32,112 bases of DNA, taken from positions 1 through 32,112 of the forward strand of contig JAJYEE010000027.1 of assembly GCA_021790335.1 (NCBI GenBank), read 5' to 3'. The notes below the pieces were generated by a model. The model saw only the letters and a program-made list of their open reading frames with translations, had not been told where the DNA came from and ran no database searches. Of this stretch, positions 11,924 through 19,800 are shown piece after piece. The stretch's first letter is position 1, and each line of letters begins with the position of its first letter. The stretch is from Pseudomonadota bacterium. Its GTDB lineage: Bacteria > Pseudomonadota > Gammaproteobacteria > Acidiferrobacterales > UBA6901. The translations under genes were made by a program, and so were the position numbers.

Positions 11924-12349
11924 TCATTCCAGACGCCCCGCGATTCTTACTCCATGCAATGGCGTGCCCGCAGCGACGTACCCGATGGCGCCGGGAACGC
12001 GGGCCACCAAGGCCACCATGTCACGGCCGGATCCCAGTACAAGCGGTGGTTCCCGGCCCTGCAGGTGCAGACGCGCCCAGTACTCGGAAAACGCCATAGG
12101 CGGAGCGCCCAGAGTGCATTGCGAAAATCTGATCCGCAATGCACTTTCAGCATCCCGATTTACCGGCACGATCGGCGTGCCGTCGGGCCACAGCCTTTCC
12201 CGCATCAGGTAGATGGCACGCAGCTCGTTGCGAAAAACCACCGCCACTGGGACCGTGGGGTTGACGATCACCAGAATGCCGCCACTTTTGGCCGAACAGA
12301 CGCCGGCCAGCACGACCCACAGTGACATCCATGCAACGATGCGGCCCAT
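11924..12349 (-). CDS. PstS-like periplasmic substrate-binding protein
   Basis: A 141-residue protein with signal peptide MGRIVAWMSLWVVLAGVCSA, followed by a phosphate-binding-protein-like domain (PF12849 type). The pattern includes AVVFRNELRAIYLMRERLWPDG, PIVPVNRD and the terminal VPGAIGYVAAGTPLHGVRI. Its length is about half of true PstS, as is common for the short PBP-like proteins encoded beside sensory genes. I chose the ATG at 12349 because it begins the signal peptide and sits 7 nt after the stop of the upstream ORF. The stop overlaps the natural ATG of the GGDEF gene. It probably delivers a periplasmic ligand signal, perhaps an oxyanion, to that receptor; this is inferred from operon structure. 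Confidence 0.8.
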   Translation of the reverse strand: MGRIVAWMSLWVVLAGVCSAKSGGILVIVNPTVPVAVVFRNELRAIYLMRERLWPDGTPIVPVNRDAESALRIRFSQCTLGAPPMAFSEYWARLHLQGREPPLVLGSGRDMVALVARVPGAIGYVAAGTPLHGVRIAGRLE

Positions 12350-12356
12350 GCGCACT

Positions 12357-12914
12357 TCAGACCGGCACCGCCCAAGCGGCATAAAGACCGGTCTGCGTGC
12401 CGACGGGCACCCCGCTTGCGGCCATACACTTGAAATTCCATGCTGTTGCAATGCCAGATTGATAGATCAGTCTGATCAGCCCTTTTCTCGCCACGACGGG
12501 CGCGACATGGATCGAGCTCCATTCGCCGACCGTGGCAAGAATTTTTCCTGCATGCAACGTCCGCACAGGCGCTATCCGGAACTCATTGTAGAGACATCCG
12601 ATCTGTATCACGCCGGAACTCCGGTCACCTTGTTCAGAGACGAACACCGGGTGAGCGATCTCCGCGTCGAGCAACCGGTTCGCATTGCGACTGCCATGAC
12701 CCGAATCCAGAAGACTCCACCCATCAAGAGCTACACGGTCGGAGCCGTTCGCAGGCAATGCAGCAACGGGATTCGCATAGCCACCGACGGTCAACGGGCC
12801 GACGGACACTCCCGCGGCAACGTCATGGCTCGCGGCGCACCGCGAAAGCCCATGGCAGCATTTGCGACAGCAATGAAGTCTGCGCGCCAGGCGCGCGAAA
12901 AAAACAACGGGCAT
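12357..12914 (-). CDS. Unrecognised ORF heading the PBP-GGDEF operon (possibly decayed outer-membrane protein)
   Basis: A 185-codon ORF that I do not recognise with confidence. It ends 7 nt before the PstS-like gene, which argues for operon membership. The tail (SGVPVGTQTGLYAAWAVPV) and the central stretch (DRSSGVIQIGCLYNEF) alternate like beta strands. That recalls the outer-membrane barrel proteins that I believe accompany PBP and GGDEF genes in some proteobacteria. The N-terminal 35 residues are Cys/Arg-rich and look like the wrong frame. A frameshifted remnant of a longer barrel gene extending upstream is possible, because no signal peptide is readable. Confidence 0.35.
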   Translation of the reverse strand: MPVVFFARLARRLHCCRKCCHGLSRCAASHDVAAGVSVGPLTVGGYANPVAALPANGSDRVALDGWSLLDSGHGSRNANRLLDAEIAHPVFVSEQGDRSSGVIQIGCLYNEFRIAPVRTLHAGKILATVGEWSSIHVAPVVARKGLIRLIYQSGIATAWNFKCMAASGVPVGTQTGLYAAWAVPV

Positions 12915-13731
12915 TCAATGCGCCGATCGGACACGACACCCCCCTCCCACGATCGTTGCGTCGTTGCCTCTATCCAGATTCGGAACCTAACGCACGCGAT
13001 GAGCCCGGTGACCGGCCGGACCCAGCGGTCTTCCCAGACGCGATCTGCGGCGCTTCAGGCGAGTTTCGATACCACCACAAGGTTCCTGATATGCATAGGG
13101 ACTGCCTGAACTGCGGCGGACGCCGACCCGATTGAGTTGCCCATGGAAACACGCTGCCGGCGCTCGGCTGCGGAGTCACCGAAAAACTGTGGCTACCGAC
13201 GATCCCTGCCGGACGCCGCCGTTTGCCTCCAATACTGACCGGACCGACCGGGACGACAAAACATCGACGGTACGGTAGTGGCTGCCGTGTGTCCGTGCAT
13301 CTCGCAACGCGCGACTCCATCAGCAGACGTGCTCACTTCGCCAGGCTGTCCCGGTAATAAATGGCCAACAGCGCCAACGGTTCTTTCCGGGTCGCTCCCG
13401 AGGCAGCTGCAAAACAGGCGCACAGGGAACGAATCGCTGCGCACGACGCCCCATCGAACACCACCCTCGCCCGCCATGCAAACGCATGCAGCTGCTGTAC
13501 ATACCGGCTTCCATGTCCTGTGCCGTACCGGTAGCTTCAACACCGCACGTCTCCGGAACATGCACCGTCGATACGTACGCGGCCCGACCCTTGCGCCGCA
13601 AGACGGTCGAACGGCGGATCATGGACATACCCGGAATGCAAGATTTCGAAATGTCGGCCGAAGGCATTGTCTGGCCCCGACGTTGAGACGCCAGGGGCGC
13701 GGAAGTTGCCCGTGAAAACACAGCCCTTGAG
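12915..13731. other. Gene-poor stretch with overlapping spurious ORFs
   Basis: Six or more ORFs of 60-150 codons overlap on both strands. None has a recognisable motif, signal peptide or strong ribosome site. The stretch may hold the eroded 5' part of the ORF at 12357-12914. I see no RNA gene, repeat array or insertion sequence. Confidence 0.5.
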
Positions 13732-13815
13732 CTAGCCTTCGGACGCGGACATCCAGACTGCGAGGGCAAACACCCAACCAATGATTGCGATGATCACAAG
13801 CGGCCACGGTACCAT
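13732..13815 (-). CDS. 27-residue single-helix membrane peptide downstream of the UreI-like gene
   Basis: The sequence MVPWPLVIIAIIGWVFALAV plus WMSASEG is one hydrophobic helix with a short polar tail. A strong ribosome site (GAGAGGAG, about 6 nt before the ATG) supports translation. It starts 38 nt after the AmiS/UreI-like gene on the same strand, so the two probably form an operon. Small single-helix subunits accompany several transporter families, for example the MetS-type partners of NSS transporters, and this may be an analogous accessory peptide. A longer upstream frame (to 13926) would run through the ribosome site and is unlikely. Confidence 0.65.
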   Translation of the reverse strand: MVPWPLVIIAIIGWVFALAVWMSASEG

Positions 13816-13852
13816 GACGATCTCCTCTCTTCGTTGAGTTCCTATGGAAACT

Positions 13853-14617
13853 TCAGAACGGACCCTGGAGGCCGGCCGGCATCGACCACAACAGCGCCGG
13901 CACCGCGAAAGTGTAGATCGCGGCAAATGTTACCACCCACCCCAGCAGCTTTTCGTTCATGCGACCCTGCATGAATAGACCCGCCAGGTTCATCGCGATG
14001 AACCACACCAGCGCAATCGTGAAATGATAGACCCAGGTCCCGCCGCCCGGCGCGGGTGTCTTCAGGAAGTACCACGCATAGGCCCCCGTCAGCCAGCCGA
14101 TGAAGATGGCCACTGCGCCCAGTTGCTTCTTCGGTATTTTGAAGATCTGCGTCAAACCGAGAGCGATGAAGAAAAATGAATACATCCCCGCAAGTCCGGT
14201 CACGAAGTTGGTGAGCGGCCCCAACCCCTGGGACACGATCATAGCGACCAGAAACGGCCACCACATCACGCCTGCCGTAACCGTGATGATGCCGACACCT
14301 CTCTCGTCCGCCTTCTTGCGCGCTGGATCCAGGTGCATCAGTCCGTTCGCCAGCAGTGCAAAGGAGCCGATATACATTAAAGGCGCGATCCACTTGCCGA
14401 CCGACGTAGCGTACACCGGCTTTGCGGGCTTCAGTTCGCTGGCGATTACCCCCAACTCATGGCTGACCGTGGTCGCGTGGGCGGCGGTCGCATGCGCAGC
14501 CATGGTGGCGGCACCCGCATCGCGTGTGACCAGCATCATCGCACCCGTCGCCAATGTTGTAATTGCCGCGGTAACGGCGGGGGTACTGCACAATCTGTCT
14601 GCGGAAAGGCTTGCCAT
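13853..14617 (-). CDS. AmiS/UreI-like multipass inner-membrane protein
   Basis: A 254-residue protein. After a hydrophobic, Ala/Thr/His-rich N-terminal stretch of about 75 residues come six clear helices starting with PLMYIGSFALLANGLMHLDP. The later helices include MWWPFLVAMIV, AGMYSFFFIALGLTQIF, GAVAIFIGWLTGAYAWYFL, HFTIALVWFIAMNLAGLFM and LLGWVVTFAAIYTFAVPALL. The first helix, the six-helix count and the Trp-rich fifth helix resemble the AmiS/UreI urea/amide channel family. Assignment is by eye and only moderately sure. The start at 14617 has GAGGAG five bases before the ATG; an upstream start at 14680 lacks one. No urease or amidase genes are nearby. It is followed by the 27-residue peptide. 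Confidence 0.6.
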   Translation of the reverse strand: MASLSADRLCSTPAVTAAITTLATGAMMLVTRDAGAATMAAHATAAHATTVSHELGVIASELKPAKPVYATSVGKWIAPLMYIGSFALLANGLMHLDPARKKADERGVGIITVTAGVMWWPFLVAMIVSQGLGPLTNFVTGLAGMYSFFFIALGLTQIFKIPKKQLGAVAIFIGWLTGAYAWYFLKTPAPGGGTWVYHFTIALVWFIAMNLAGLFMQGRMNEKLLGWVVTFAAIYTFAVPALLWSMPAGLQGPF

Positions 14618-15317
14618 TTCTTCTCCTCGTAAAAGTGGTGATGGTGACGCTCTATCCTTCGGACAAAGAGGGGGTAGCATTCGTATTTTTCCTCCCCTCG
14701 ATAATTCTTACTCTACGAGGCGCATGCATGTCTGTAATCAATGGTACAGATCGGAATCCGTCTAAACTTCAGCAACATAGTGAACACCGGCTTCGGTGCG
14801 GTGAGGTGAGGTGAGGTGATTCTTGCCGGCAATCAAAACTGGTCATGATGTTCCGCGACCTCCTTTCTGATCTTGCTGCCCGGCTCCGTCATGCGGTGCG
14901 GCAACGACGCCGGATCACTGTCCGCCCGCAACCAGCAGACTTCAGCCGCTTCTGAAAAGGATCGCGGCAGGAGCTTCGGGCTTGTACTTATGCAGCGACC
15001 GCCGGCCTCATGATTTTCACGAACAGTCATGGAAATCCAGTATGCCGTTGGCACTTGCGAACGATCACTCATGGTCAGAAACCCGCCTGACGCGATTTCT
15101 CGCCCGAACGGTACCGGTTGCTGGCCTGTTTTAGCCCGGCATGTTTTCCGGAGTCACCTCGACTTTAGCCAGTCCGGCGGCAATACATGGGCAATCACAG
15201 GTTGTCGGTGCATTTTTCGCTTCGCCTAACGGCACGGGGAGCAGGCGCCTCGAAACCTGACGTGCAGGAACTGATAGGACACGAACAGGCCGGTACGCCA
15301 GGCAGAAGCCACTGTGA
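14618..15317. other. Intergenic region upstream of the UreI-like gene
   Basis: No supportable gene. The UreI-like promoter is expected within about 150 bases of 14617, and the region around 14690-14720 is locally AT-rich. A short tandem repeat lies at 14800-14819. ORFs such as 14833-15072 on the minus strand lack motifs. Confidence 0.5.
14800..14819. repeat. Four tandem copies of GGTGA
   Basis: Four exact GGTGA units follow each other with no interruption. The tract is about 180 bp upstream of the UreI-like start and not inside a gene. A five-base unit could slip during replication, but no effect is evident from position. Confidence 0.85.
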
Positions 15318-15879: not shown

Positions 15880-16897
15880 GCGAAGTGGCCGCGTACCCAA
15901 AACCGCATGCCAACGTGAACAAACTGAACCGCCGTCAGTTCTCGACCACGGCATGAATCCCACGGGGTACCGTCGAAAATCTCGAGACTGCAGTAATCGT
16001 ACGGTTATTTGACGGGCGAATCGCGCGGAGCTTTCCGGGGTTGCAAGCAACCGCTGGTTGAGTCTGGGGCGGAATTACTGATCATTTCACTGAAACGGTG
16101 CATAATCACGTCGCGATTTCAGGCACTCGGAAACCACTCACCGCCAGCAAATCCGAGCGGCCAGCGCAGTGAGTACTGCACCGGCAAGTCGCATCGGACG
16201 ACGCCTGTCGATCATCTCAGGCCGATGCGACGCGCACATGTGACACAAGCCTGATGACGGCAAACAAATCGATGCGCCGCCGCGATGGCGGATTGGGCGC
16301 ACGGCGACCCTAGCGTTGGGAGCAGCACCCGGGGGCGACGCGGCCTGTTGAACGCAGCATTATTGTTAAGATGTTCTGTCAACTGAATTCGCCGTTTTAT
16401 CTCTGGACACATCGTGTCGTGGCAATTCTGGTCCGGCCCGGATTTTGCATCACGAGGCATCGCCCGTCACCGTGGGCGCTGCGTTCATCCCTGAGACATA
16501 TAAATCTGCAGAAACCCGCTGCACGGCTAAAAATGAATCGAGACTGGAAATCAGCATCATTCGCACAGGTCGGGCCAGCTATCGCTTGGTCTGCAATTGG
16601 ATCCGGGCAACGGCTGAGCCAAGAACAGACGTTCCTGGGGAGTCGCGCGTCCGGTTCAATGCGACCAATTTTCGGAGAGGTCATGAAACGCTTGCTCAAA
16701 CAGCCCGACAGACGACTCCGTCTGGACATCGACGGGTACCGGGCGCCCCGATCGAGCGAAGCCGCGCGTTTCCTTGATCAATACAGGCGGAGACCGCGAC
16801 TCATTCCGGCGCGGGGCAAATGGCCCGGAGCCGAACGGAACATTCGTTGGTCTCCGTCTGGACGGGATAAACCTCTAATAGTGCAGCTTCCGGCCTC
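15880..16897. other. Long spacer upstream of the large c-di-GMP gene
   Basis: About 1 kb with no recognised gene. A plus-strand ORF at 16371-16901 (176 codons) ends in ATGA overlap with the large gene, which could suggest coupling. However, its sequence is low in hydrophobic core pattern, matches nothing I know and has no ribosome site, so I do not call it. The promoter of the large gene should lie here but I could not identify it. Confidence 0.45.
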
Positions 16898-19800
16898 ATG
16901 AGTTGGCCGCATCCAGTCCTTAAGGAGCGCGTCTGGCGACTTCTGCTCCTGACTCTGCCGGTAGGGATACTGCTGGCCGGCAGTCTCTGGACCGAACATC
17001 AACAGTTCCAGTGGGCCCATGCGCGGGTCAGGCAGGAAGCAGGGCGCGCGGCCTCCGGCTACGCCCGTCGCATCGCCAGCCGGCTTAACGCCCAGTTCAA
17101 CGAACTGCAGCTGGCAGCCGTCGCCTTGCTCGGCCCCAAGGCAGACCCCGCGTCGCCTGCTCCCTGGGTCGTACAGACTCTGCGCCGCTTCATGGCGCTG
17201 CATTCAAGTCTTTACGCCTTCAACATCGAAGCGAAGGATGGCAATACCATCCTGTGGTCCACTCAGACACAGAATCGCAAAACTATCGACACAAACTCGG
17301 CATACCTTCCGCTGGCCGGCAACCCGGATTTCCTTCTGGGCCAGGATCGATATGCCGCCCGCGTTGGTACGCATGTTCTGACCATGCGGGTTCCGGTCAG
17401 GGGCCCTGACGGACAGGCCCGGTATTTTGTCGGCACACCCTACCGGCTGGATCAACTGCTGAGCGATCCCCGGACACAGTCGAGATGGATCTTCAGCGTG
17501 CTCGACACGCGAGACGGACGTGTTCTGGGCATTATGAATAACGGGCACGTGCAGTTCACGACTAAACCTCCGGGGTCCCGGGGTGCGTGGATTGCGGTTC
17601 CGGATTATCCGCTGGCGGTGCATGCAGCCTGGTCGCCTGAGCTGGTACGGCAAACCTACCTGCAGGCCGCGTGGCCTCGCTGGGCACTGGAGGGAACGAC
17701 GCTCCTGCTGCTCAGTGCTGCGGCCTTCGGCATCATGGCCCTCATGCGGCAGCGTGAGGCCGGCGCCCGGCACGTGCAACGCCTTGCGGATTTCAATGCG
17801 CTGCTGGCCCAGGTCAATCAGGCCATGGCCGGCGCAGAGGATGAATTGGGTCTGCTGCGGTCCATCTGCCAACTCGCCGTGCAATACGCGAAGCTCAAGC
17901 TCGCTTTCATCGCCCAGCCCGATCCCCACGGGCGCTTCTCGATCCTTGCGGCGGACGGTGAGACAGGCTACGCGGACGGACTGGTGATATCCATCGATCC
18001 CGATACCCCGCAAGGTCAGGGAATGGCCGGGCGTGCCTGGAGAGAAGGCCGGTCGTATTACATCCAGTCTATTCCGCACGCCCCCTTTCAGAGACCCTGG
18101 GCAGATCTCGCCCGCCGCTTTGGTCTGCAGTCCTGCGCTTCGGTACTCATTCACAGACACGGCGCCCTATGGGCAGTTTTTGCCGTGTATCACGCCGAAA
18201 AACAGGCCTTTGATACCGAACTCAAGGCTCTGCTTGAAGAGCTGGCTCTGGACATTTCCCATGGACTGGATCGCCTCGATCTGCTCCAGAACCAGGCACT
18301 TCTGGCCAATGCCCTGGCTGCAGTCAGTGACGGCGTCATCATCAGCGATGCGCAGCAGCGCACGACTTACGTGAATGACGCCTTCACGGCAATTACCGGC
18401 TATACCGCCCAAGAGATGTGCATTTTCGACTGGCACGTCATGCAGGGAGGCGATACAGATCCGGAAACAATTGCACAACGTTCTCGCCTACTGAACGCAG
18501 GTGAGTCGTTCCGAGGCGAGATTCTCAATTACCGCAAGGATGGAGGAACCTTCTGGAACCTGCTCACGGTCGATCCAGTGCGCGATCCCGCGGGACAGAT
18601 CACCAATTTCGTGGGCGTGCTGCGCGACATCACCCATTTACGCGAGCTGAGCGAACGGCTGGAGTTCCAGGCCCTGCATGACGTTTTAACCGGAATTCCA
18701 AACCGCCGCGCCCTTGAACAGCACCTGCCGCAAGCCATCGCCCGAGCGCGCCGTACGGGCAGCAGACTTGCCGTGGGAATCATCGATCTGGACGACTTCA
18801 AACCCATAAACGATACCTGGGGCCATGAGGCTGGGGACCGTCTGCTGCAGAAACTGGTGGGACGCCTGCAGTCCGGACTGCGGGAGTCCGACCTGCTCGT
18901 CAGACTCGGAGGCGACGAGTTCGTCGTCATCATCGAAGAGATCGATGATCTGCAGAGCTCCCATCAACTCATCGCGGTGCTCGATCGTCTGCACCGGGCG
19001 GTGGAATCCTCCTTCGATATGCCTGGAGGGCACCAAGCCAGGGTAGACATGACTTTGGGCCTGGCCCTGTTTCCCATTGATGGCGAAGATGCCGATGCGC
19101 TCCTTCGTCAGGCCGATGTAGCGATGTATCAGGCCAAGCTACACAAGCATGACCGCGTGCATTGGTGGCGCCTGGCCGCCACCAGCGCGGCCGAGCCCGA
19201 GCGCGAGGCAGCATTCGAGGTTTACGATGGGGAGGCCGCTGCCTTGCTCGGCAAGGTCCAGGCCCATTTGCTGGAGACTACACAACAGTTCGTCAAGACG
19301 TTTTATGACGAACTTTCGCACAACCCTTTGGCGCAAGCCATACTGGCCACCCTGAGCGGACCGGAGCTACAGACTCTCATGGTCCGTCAGAGTGAGCATC
19401 TGCGCTTTCTGTTCGACCCTGGTACGACCCGCACGGTGATCCTGGAGCGTGCCCGCCACCTGGGCCGGGCACACACCCTGACCGGGATCGGCCCTGCCCT
19501 GATGGTGCAGTCACTCGCGATCTACCGGAGACTGCTCAGCGCACACCTCACGCTGGTTCATCTCACCGCGCGCGATCGTTACCGGCTCCTGCTTGTCACC
19601 GATACCCGCTTGCAGGACGACATCCAGTCCGAGATGCTCGAAGGGGACCGCATCATGGACTGTTACCTTCAGATATTGGCGGCGCCGCTGCCGGCCGTAG
19701 GGGCGTTGTGGAAGGATGCGGCCCAGGCGGAACTTGGTGCCCTTTGGGCCCTGCCAGGGGTTTTGGCCTGTGAGATCATGCGCCCGGATCAGCATGGCGT

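Follow-up and report, generated by a model that had tools for sequence, protein, structure and literature searches.

A conserved single-helix microprotein gene follows a divergent AmiS/UreI-like channel gene in two bacterial phyla

Channels of the AmiS/UreI family are known as homo-hexamers; UreI is acid gated and conducts urea or short amides, and the genes of the family are usually linked to urease or amidase. We know of no accessory subunit in this family, and none showed in the titles and opening lines of abstracts of the open-licence PMC papers found on the subject. The window analysed here, a stretch of 32,112 nucleotides of a gammaproteobacterial contig (JAJYEE010000027.1), carries a gene for a UreI-like protein followed at once by an open reading frame (ORF) of only 27 codons, so short that gene callers tend to leave it out. 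Is this short frame a gene and, if so, does its product belong to the channel?

The initial annotation, made from the letters of the DNA, had described a single-helix peptide with a strong ribosome site, beginning 38 nt after the channel gene. Both frames, of channel and peptide, are where they had been placed, on the minus strand (Table 1), but the distance from channel stop to peptide start is 37 nt (13816-13852). In the window 698 start positions open frames of 20-45 codons; nine of these have a 5-nt Shine-Dalgarno match, and among the nine only the peptide reaches a Kyte-Doolittle mean of at least 2.0 over 19 residues (2.48).

Table 1. Coordinates in the window of the channel-peptide locus and its signals
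Feature	Position	Strand	Basis
Gene of the 27-aa single-span membrane peptide (MVPWPLVIIAIIGWVFALAVWMSASEG)	13732..13815	-	conserved ORF, own ribosome site
AGAGGAG, Shine-Dalgarno site 6 nt ahead of the peptide's ATG	13822..13828	-	read from sequence
Gene of the AmiS/UreI-like six-helix channel, 254 aa	13853..14617	-	Pfam, model, fold match
Probable signal peptide of the channel, ~residues 1-37, A-x-A-like end	14507..14617	-	by eye, no signal-peptide program; comparable N-termini in relatives
Poorly conserved, probably periplasmic linker, ~residues 38-74, ahead of the first channel helix	14396..14506	-	
GAGGAG, Shine-Dalgarno site 5 nt ahead of the channel's ATG	14623..14628	-	

Conservation in homologous loci had been fixed beforehand as the test of the peptide. 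Relatives of the channel were collected from 12 of the 57 genomes sampled in the order (its own genome included), from one further gammaproteobacterial MAG (L019) and from one Desulfurellaceae MAG (L023), in whose phylum, the second one considered here, six of 25 sampled genomes carry the channel (that of L023 included), for a total of 19 genomes. These gave 20 readable channel 3' ends, including that of the window; G002 contributes two, and two ends come from channels that are broken or truncated (that of G802 and one of the two in G002, the second copy). The gene of G014 is divided between two contigs; here the 3' piece L014 was used, and the cut copies L012, L022 and L045 were set aside. 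All 20 ends are followed, after 10-52 nt, by a single-helix ORF of 23-29 residues with the motif GW..[AT]...W.

The 14 gammaproteobacterial peptides have P3, W4, V7, G13, W14 and W21 in common, and G13, W14 and W21 are invariant in the 22 peptides that were aligned (27 were seen, 20 beside a channel and seven stand-alone). The ratio pN/pS is 0.31 and 0.23 in two groups, by pairwise counts that are not independent, and codon differences fall mostly in the third position (141 vs 75 and 44 in the other two; 198 vs 90 and 20), with less or no such bias in the other two reading frames. Six-frame translation of partly redundant loci (585,544 residues) contains the motif 44 times, 43 times in a channel-linked peptide and once, in the window, by chance; base-shuffled sequence holds it five times in 3,823,200 residues. 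It is absent downstream of all six canonical UreI-like genes taken from 369 genomes of the class. The peptide has no family match in Pfam or NCBIfam, and its profile found only a chance match (E 6.3) among PDB sequences. The peptide is under purifying selection and conserved across two phyla, and is a real gene. With fewer than 50 residues, one transmembrane helix and conservation beside one partner, it resembles the small accessory subunits of membrane transporters. The region is a two-gene unit, channel then peptide, in which both genes are shown to be real and their order to be fixed.

The channel matches the Pfam family AmiS_UreI (PF02293) at 29.1 bits, marginally over the gathering cut-off of 25 (30.3 bits on the DNA of its own genome). 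PF02293 is the sole Pfam family listed for it at E up to 10, in a search whose HMMER filters may drop weak matches, and the Pfam family of the SatP/AceTr transporters gave no match over this range. NCBIfam returned nothing significant (best E 0.13), nor did a search of PDB sequences with the channel profile give a match. A model of the channel core (199 residues, from a 21-sequence alignment) has a mean pLDDT of 85.3 and six helices, the first of which begins near residue 74; its loop between helices 2 and 3 has just three residues, a difference from AmiS/UreI proteins. With this model Foldseek found just two matches below E 0.001, both of them structures of Helicobacter pylori UreI. VIA-align gave Z scores of 18.7 and 18.4 for this protein (PDB 6nsj and 3ux4; rmsd 2.5-2.6 Å over 167-169 residues), the best structural match, but at only 15% identity. 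SatP/AceTr structures (PDB 5ys3, 5ys8 and 5zug) have the same overall fold and follow close behind (Z 16.9-17.2), but score less well in Foldseek (E no better than 0.08), and PF02293 is the only one of the two families that the channel matches. Since UreI and SatP are both near in Z, the channel has the fold of the UreI/SatP group, which alone does not point to one substrate.

In a profile alignment with six canonical members, which had a probability of only 23% and did not include H. pylori UreI, the invariant H198 of the channel stands at a helix-5 position where five of the six have Trp, a conserved Trp of the canonical members falls on W205 and a canonical Tyr on F150. In UreI the constriction residues are Trp153 and Tyr88 (PMC4482100); the columns of W205 and F150 are presumably their equivalents. 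This protein is best read as a six-helix channel of divergent AmiS/UreI type that probably carries a signal peptide. The initial assignment to a six-helix UreI-like family, for which a profile check had been proposed, is borne out by both Pfam and fold.

Ahead of the channel core there is indeed an N-terminal extension of about 75 residues, which had been noted as rich in Ala, Thr and His, but its histidines are missing from the sequences of one genus of the order (g6, presumably Acidiferrobacter) and are not conserved outside closer kin, and by eye much of it looks like a signal peptide. To judge from the residues, it appears to consist of a signal peptide that ends in an A-x-A-like site and a variable linker, and comparable N-termini are found in the gammaproteobacterial and second-phylum relatives. 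The probable signal peptide and linker set the channel apart from other AmiS/UreI proteins: in four of the six canonical genes, from the same class, at most eight open codons precede the Pfam match, which leaves no room for a signal peptide; in the other two there are 28 and 35.

Among the neighbouring ORFs with Pfam matches no obvious partner for the pair stands out. Among the 20 further ORFs of the window that were scanned, those with Pfam matches encode an ABC transporter, a HlyD-type protein, a symporter, an AurF-like protein, GGDEF/EAL proteins, a solute-binding/transglycosylase protein, a methyltransferase, a DUF1993 protein and a GMP synthase; two longer ORFs near the pair (12213-13109 and 16371-16901) have no Pfam match. 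When flanking ORFs were compared in 13 sequences, different genera had little in common besides the pair, more being shared only inside a genus. Two close relatives also retain the AurF-like N-oxygenase family protein (PF11583, 7640-8575) in the vicinity of the pair.

The statement that no urease lies nearby also held, with none among the 20 scanned ORFs of the window and no match to urease alpha in the whole genome, which is 97.6% complete. Urease alpha is present in 4 of the 12 channel carriers of the order and in 4 of the 45 non-carriers (p 0.05), and in genus g6 in four of seven carriers vs none of seven non-carriers (p 0.035), both tests being uncorrected and ignoring relatedness. Urease was rejected as the partner. 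What the channel passes is probably a small solute that is neutral or weakly acidic, such as urea, a short amide or acetate. Several of the source sites are, as we understand, acid mine or volcanic ones, and to judge by these sites the lineages may be acid-adapted. The literature on Desulfurella amilsii and urea and on Acidiferrobacter and acid resistance gave no lead, and UreI/AmiS terms are absent from PMC8886135.

How strictly are the two genes tied to each other? For the census of channels PF02293 was dropped, because in the class sample it missed G009, a known carrier, and a profile of our own (A1) was used instead. Both genes are present in 12 of the 57 genomes of the order, the peptide only in five, the channel only in none and neither in 40 (Fisher p 9e-9, relatedness ignored); in the second phylum six genomes have both and 19 have neither (p 6e-6, relatedness again ignored), the peptide profile matching exactly the six channel genomes of the 25. 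Over the 369 genomes of the class the peptide profile made three convincing matches (G000, G009 and G211, the last apparently, from its contig number and position, the genome of L019) and one chance match within a 911-residue frame. Profile A1 matched the own genome alone among 398 genomes of the phylum, and plasmid records gave no channel match. The pairing proposed in the initial annotation consequently stands in one direction, with a peptide behind every readable channel, but not in the other, as the five genomes of the order with a peptide and no detected channel disfavour a simple channel subunit and indicate that the peptide is not strictly tied to it.

We lean, with modest confidence, towards the peptide being an accessory subunit of this divergent UreI-like channel with its probable signal peptide, and having in addition some role that does not depend on the channel. 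The peptide, with a ribosome site of its own, would be translated 10-52 nt downstream of the channel gene and would insert in the membrane, where the channel, its N-terminus probably outside, would be its partner. Residues G13, [A/T]17 and W21 form a conserved face of its helix, and the spacing i, i+4, i+8 is that of a usual helix-packing face; this G13-xxx-[A/T]17-xxx-W21 face may pack against the channel or its oligomer. By analogy with KdpF and AcrZ, the peptide may affect assembly, stability or gating of the channel. A model of channel and peptide fused in a single chain gave pLDDT values of ~60-88, by block, for the channel helices and ~50 for the peptide, which was not confidently placed, so that no docking is supported. 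In the one genus where the peptide is kept without the channel, it might act on another partner or alone.

This genus is g6, in which seven genomes (G019, G035, G039, G041, G043, G045 and G051) have a stand-alone peptide before leuA, in four cases with a cupredoxin-like gene upstream; the peptide of G019 scores weakly (E 0.07) and was assigned mainly by position. No channel was detected in five of the seven, the other two (G043 and G051) carrying a channel-peptide pair elsewhere, with neither the cupredoxin-like gene nor leuA near it. The five channel-less genomes are 92-99% complete, which makes absence of the channel likely, not certain, and a missed channel possible. Within two channel-less pairs, G041/G045 and G039/G035, seven differences are synonymous and two non-synonymous, whereas neutral change would make 23% of them synonymous (p 8e-4, from a simple count that ignores transition bias, on pairs picked for lacking the channel; in the leuA tree G039 and G035 are sisters, and G041 and G045 belong to the same group and are not sisters). 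By such codon counts, the stand-alone copies are still under selection.

At the leuA locus the channel is present in five species and missing in seven. In a leuA tree of 12 rows the five channel-bearing species fall together (90/95) with the seven stand-alone-peptide species around them, and given the midpoint root and the long G019 branch the tree fits one gain of the channel or repeated loss. In five of the seven g6 carriers (G009, G023, G029, G037 and G014, the last over two contigs) the pair lies between the cupredoxin-like gene and leuA, which is further away in G023. In much of the genus this cupredoxin-like gene, named by eye and with a secreted product, precedes either the pair or the stand-alone peptide (L071, L073, L074, L021, L026 and L064-L067).

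The stand-alone copies imply a role of the peptide next to, or in place of, that on the channel. Two further readings concern this role. On a tentative view, which we rate as possible, the GW..[AT]...W microproteins are a new family, the constant partner of a signal-peptide-bearing UreI-like branch in two phyla, whose own function persists without the channel, so that the peptide and not the channel is indispensable. Rather unlikely, in our judgement, is a membrane microprotein with a function entirely its own (another partner, or a direct role in the membrane or in stress), co-transcribed with the channel for shared conditions only. Seven genomes with a copy before leuA, five of them with no detected channel, and the selection acting on these copies speak for such an independent function. 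So does the intact peptide beside two damaged channels: that of G802 (L052/L053, G802:C1:1365713-1366260), which has three in-frame stops and a frame change, and the second copy of G002 (L024/L013, G002:C32), which is matched only from residue 118 and has one internal stop, its peptide being intact and diverged. However, no channel was found without a peptide (0 of 20 cases), a channel may have been missed in genomes of this completeness, and outside g6 the samples of 57, 25 and 369 genomes hold no convincing peptide without a channel; these points count against it.

The leuA locus of g6 has also a conserved RNA-like element between peptide and leuA (L065:4990-5150, L064:3545-3705, L006:2262-2422 and eight matching stretches), followed by a G+C-rich terminator-like hairpin and a T-rich stretch. 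In 11 sequences 6 of its 25 predicted pairs are changed on both sides. Rfam gave no match in five loci at the gathering score, nor in the leuA leader of L065 at E up to 1; to us the element resembles a ykkC-type (ppGpp) riboswitch. This element and hairpin, together with a channel stop only 10-52 nt away, would suit a short ORF that serves translation or RNA control, as a leader or by coupling, with an inert product. We consider this improbable, as it is the amino acids that are conserved, with changes mostly in the third position, the ORF comes after the channel and not before it, and neither the window nor four second-phylum loci (L048-L051) have a leuA match. A hydrophobic type I toxin-like peptide, to which only size and hydrophobicity point, is a shade more improbable still, given the steady pairing, in two phyla, with a single channel family. 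A chance ORF, suggested by its shortness, is refuted by the same motif in the same place in two phyla and by purifying selection; the motif counts given above also speak against it, and it keeps practically no probability.

KdpF, AcrZ and MgtS are small membrane proteins that act on transporters (PMC11539335). Like them, the peptide is a short membrane protein found together with a larger protein of transport; it differs in having no family match, a UreI-like channel as its putative partner, and some copies without the channel. The channel, in turn, departs from other AmiS/UreI proteins by having a candidate peptide partner and a genome that lacks a urease alpha match. With a putative channel and a putative accessory subunit, the pair would make a two-component system, open to testing, in a family whose known channels are homo-hexamers. 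Its peptide is a recurrent microprotein of a size usually dropped by gene calling. The species in which only the peptide was detected provide a natural experiment on its own role.
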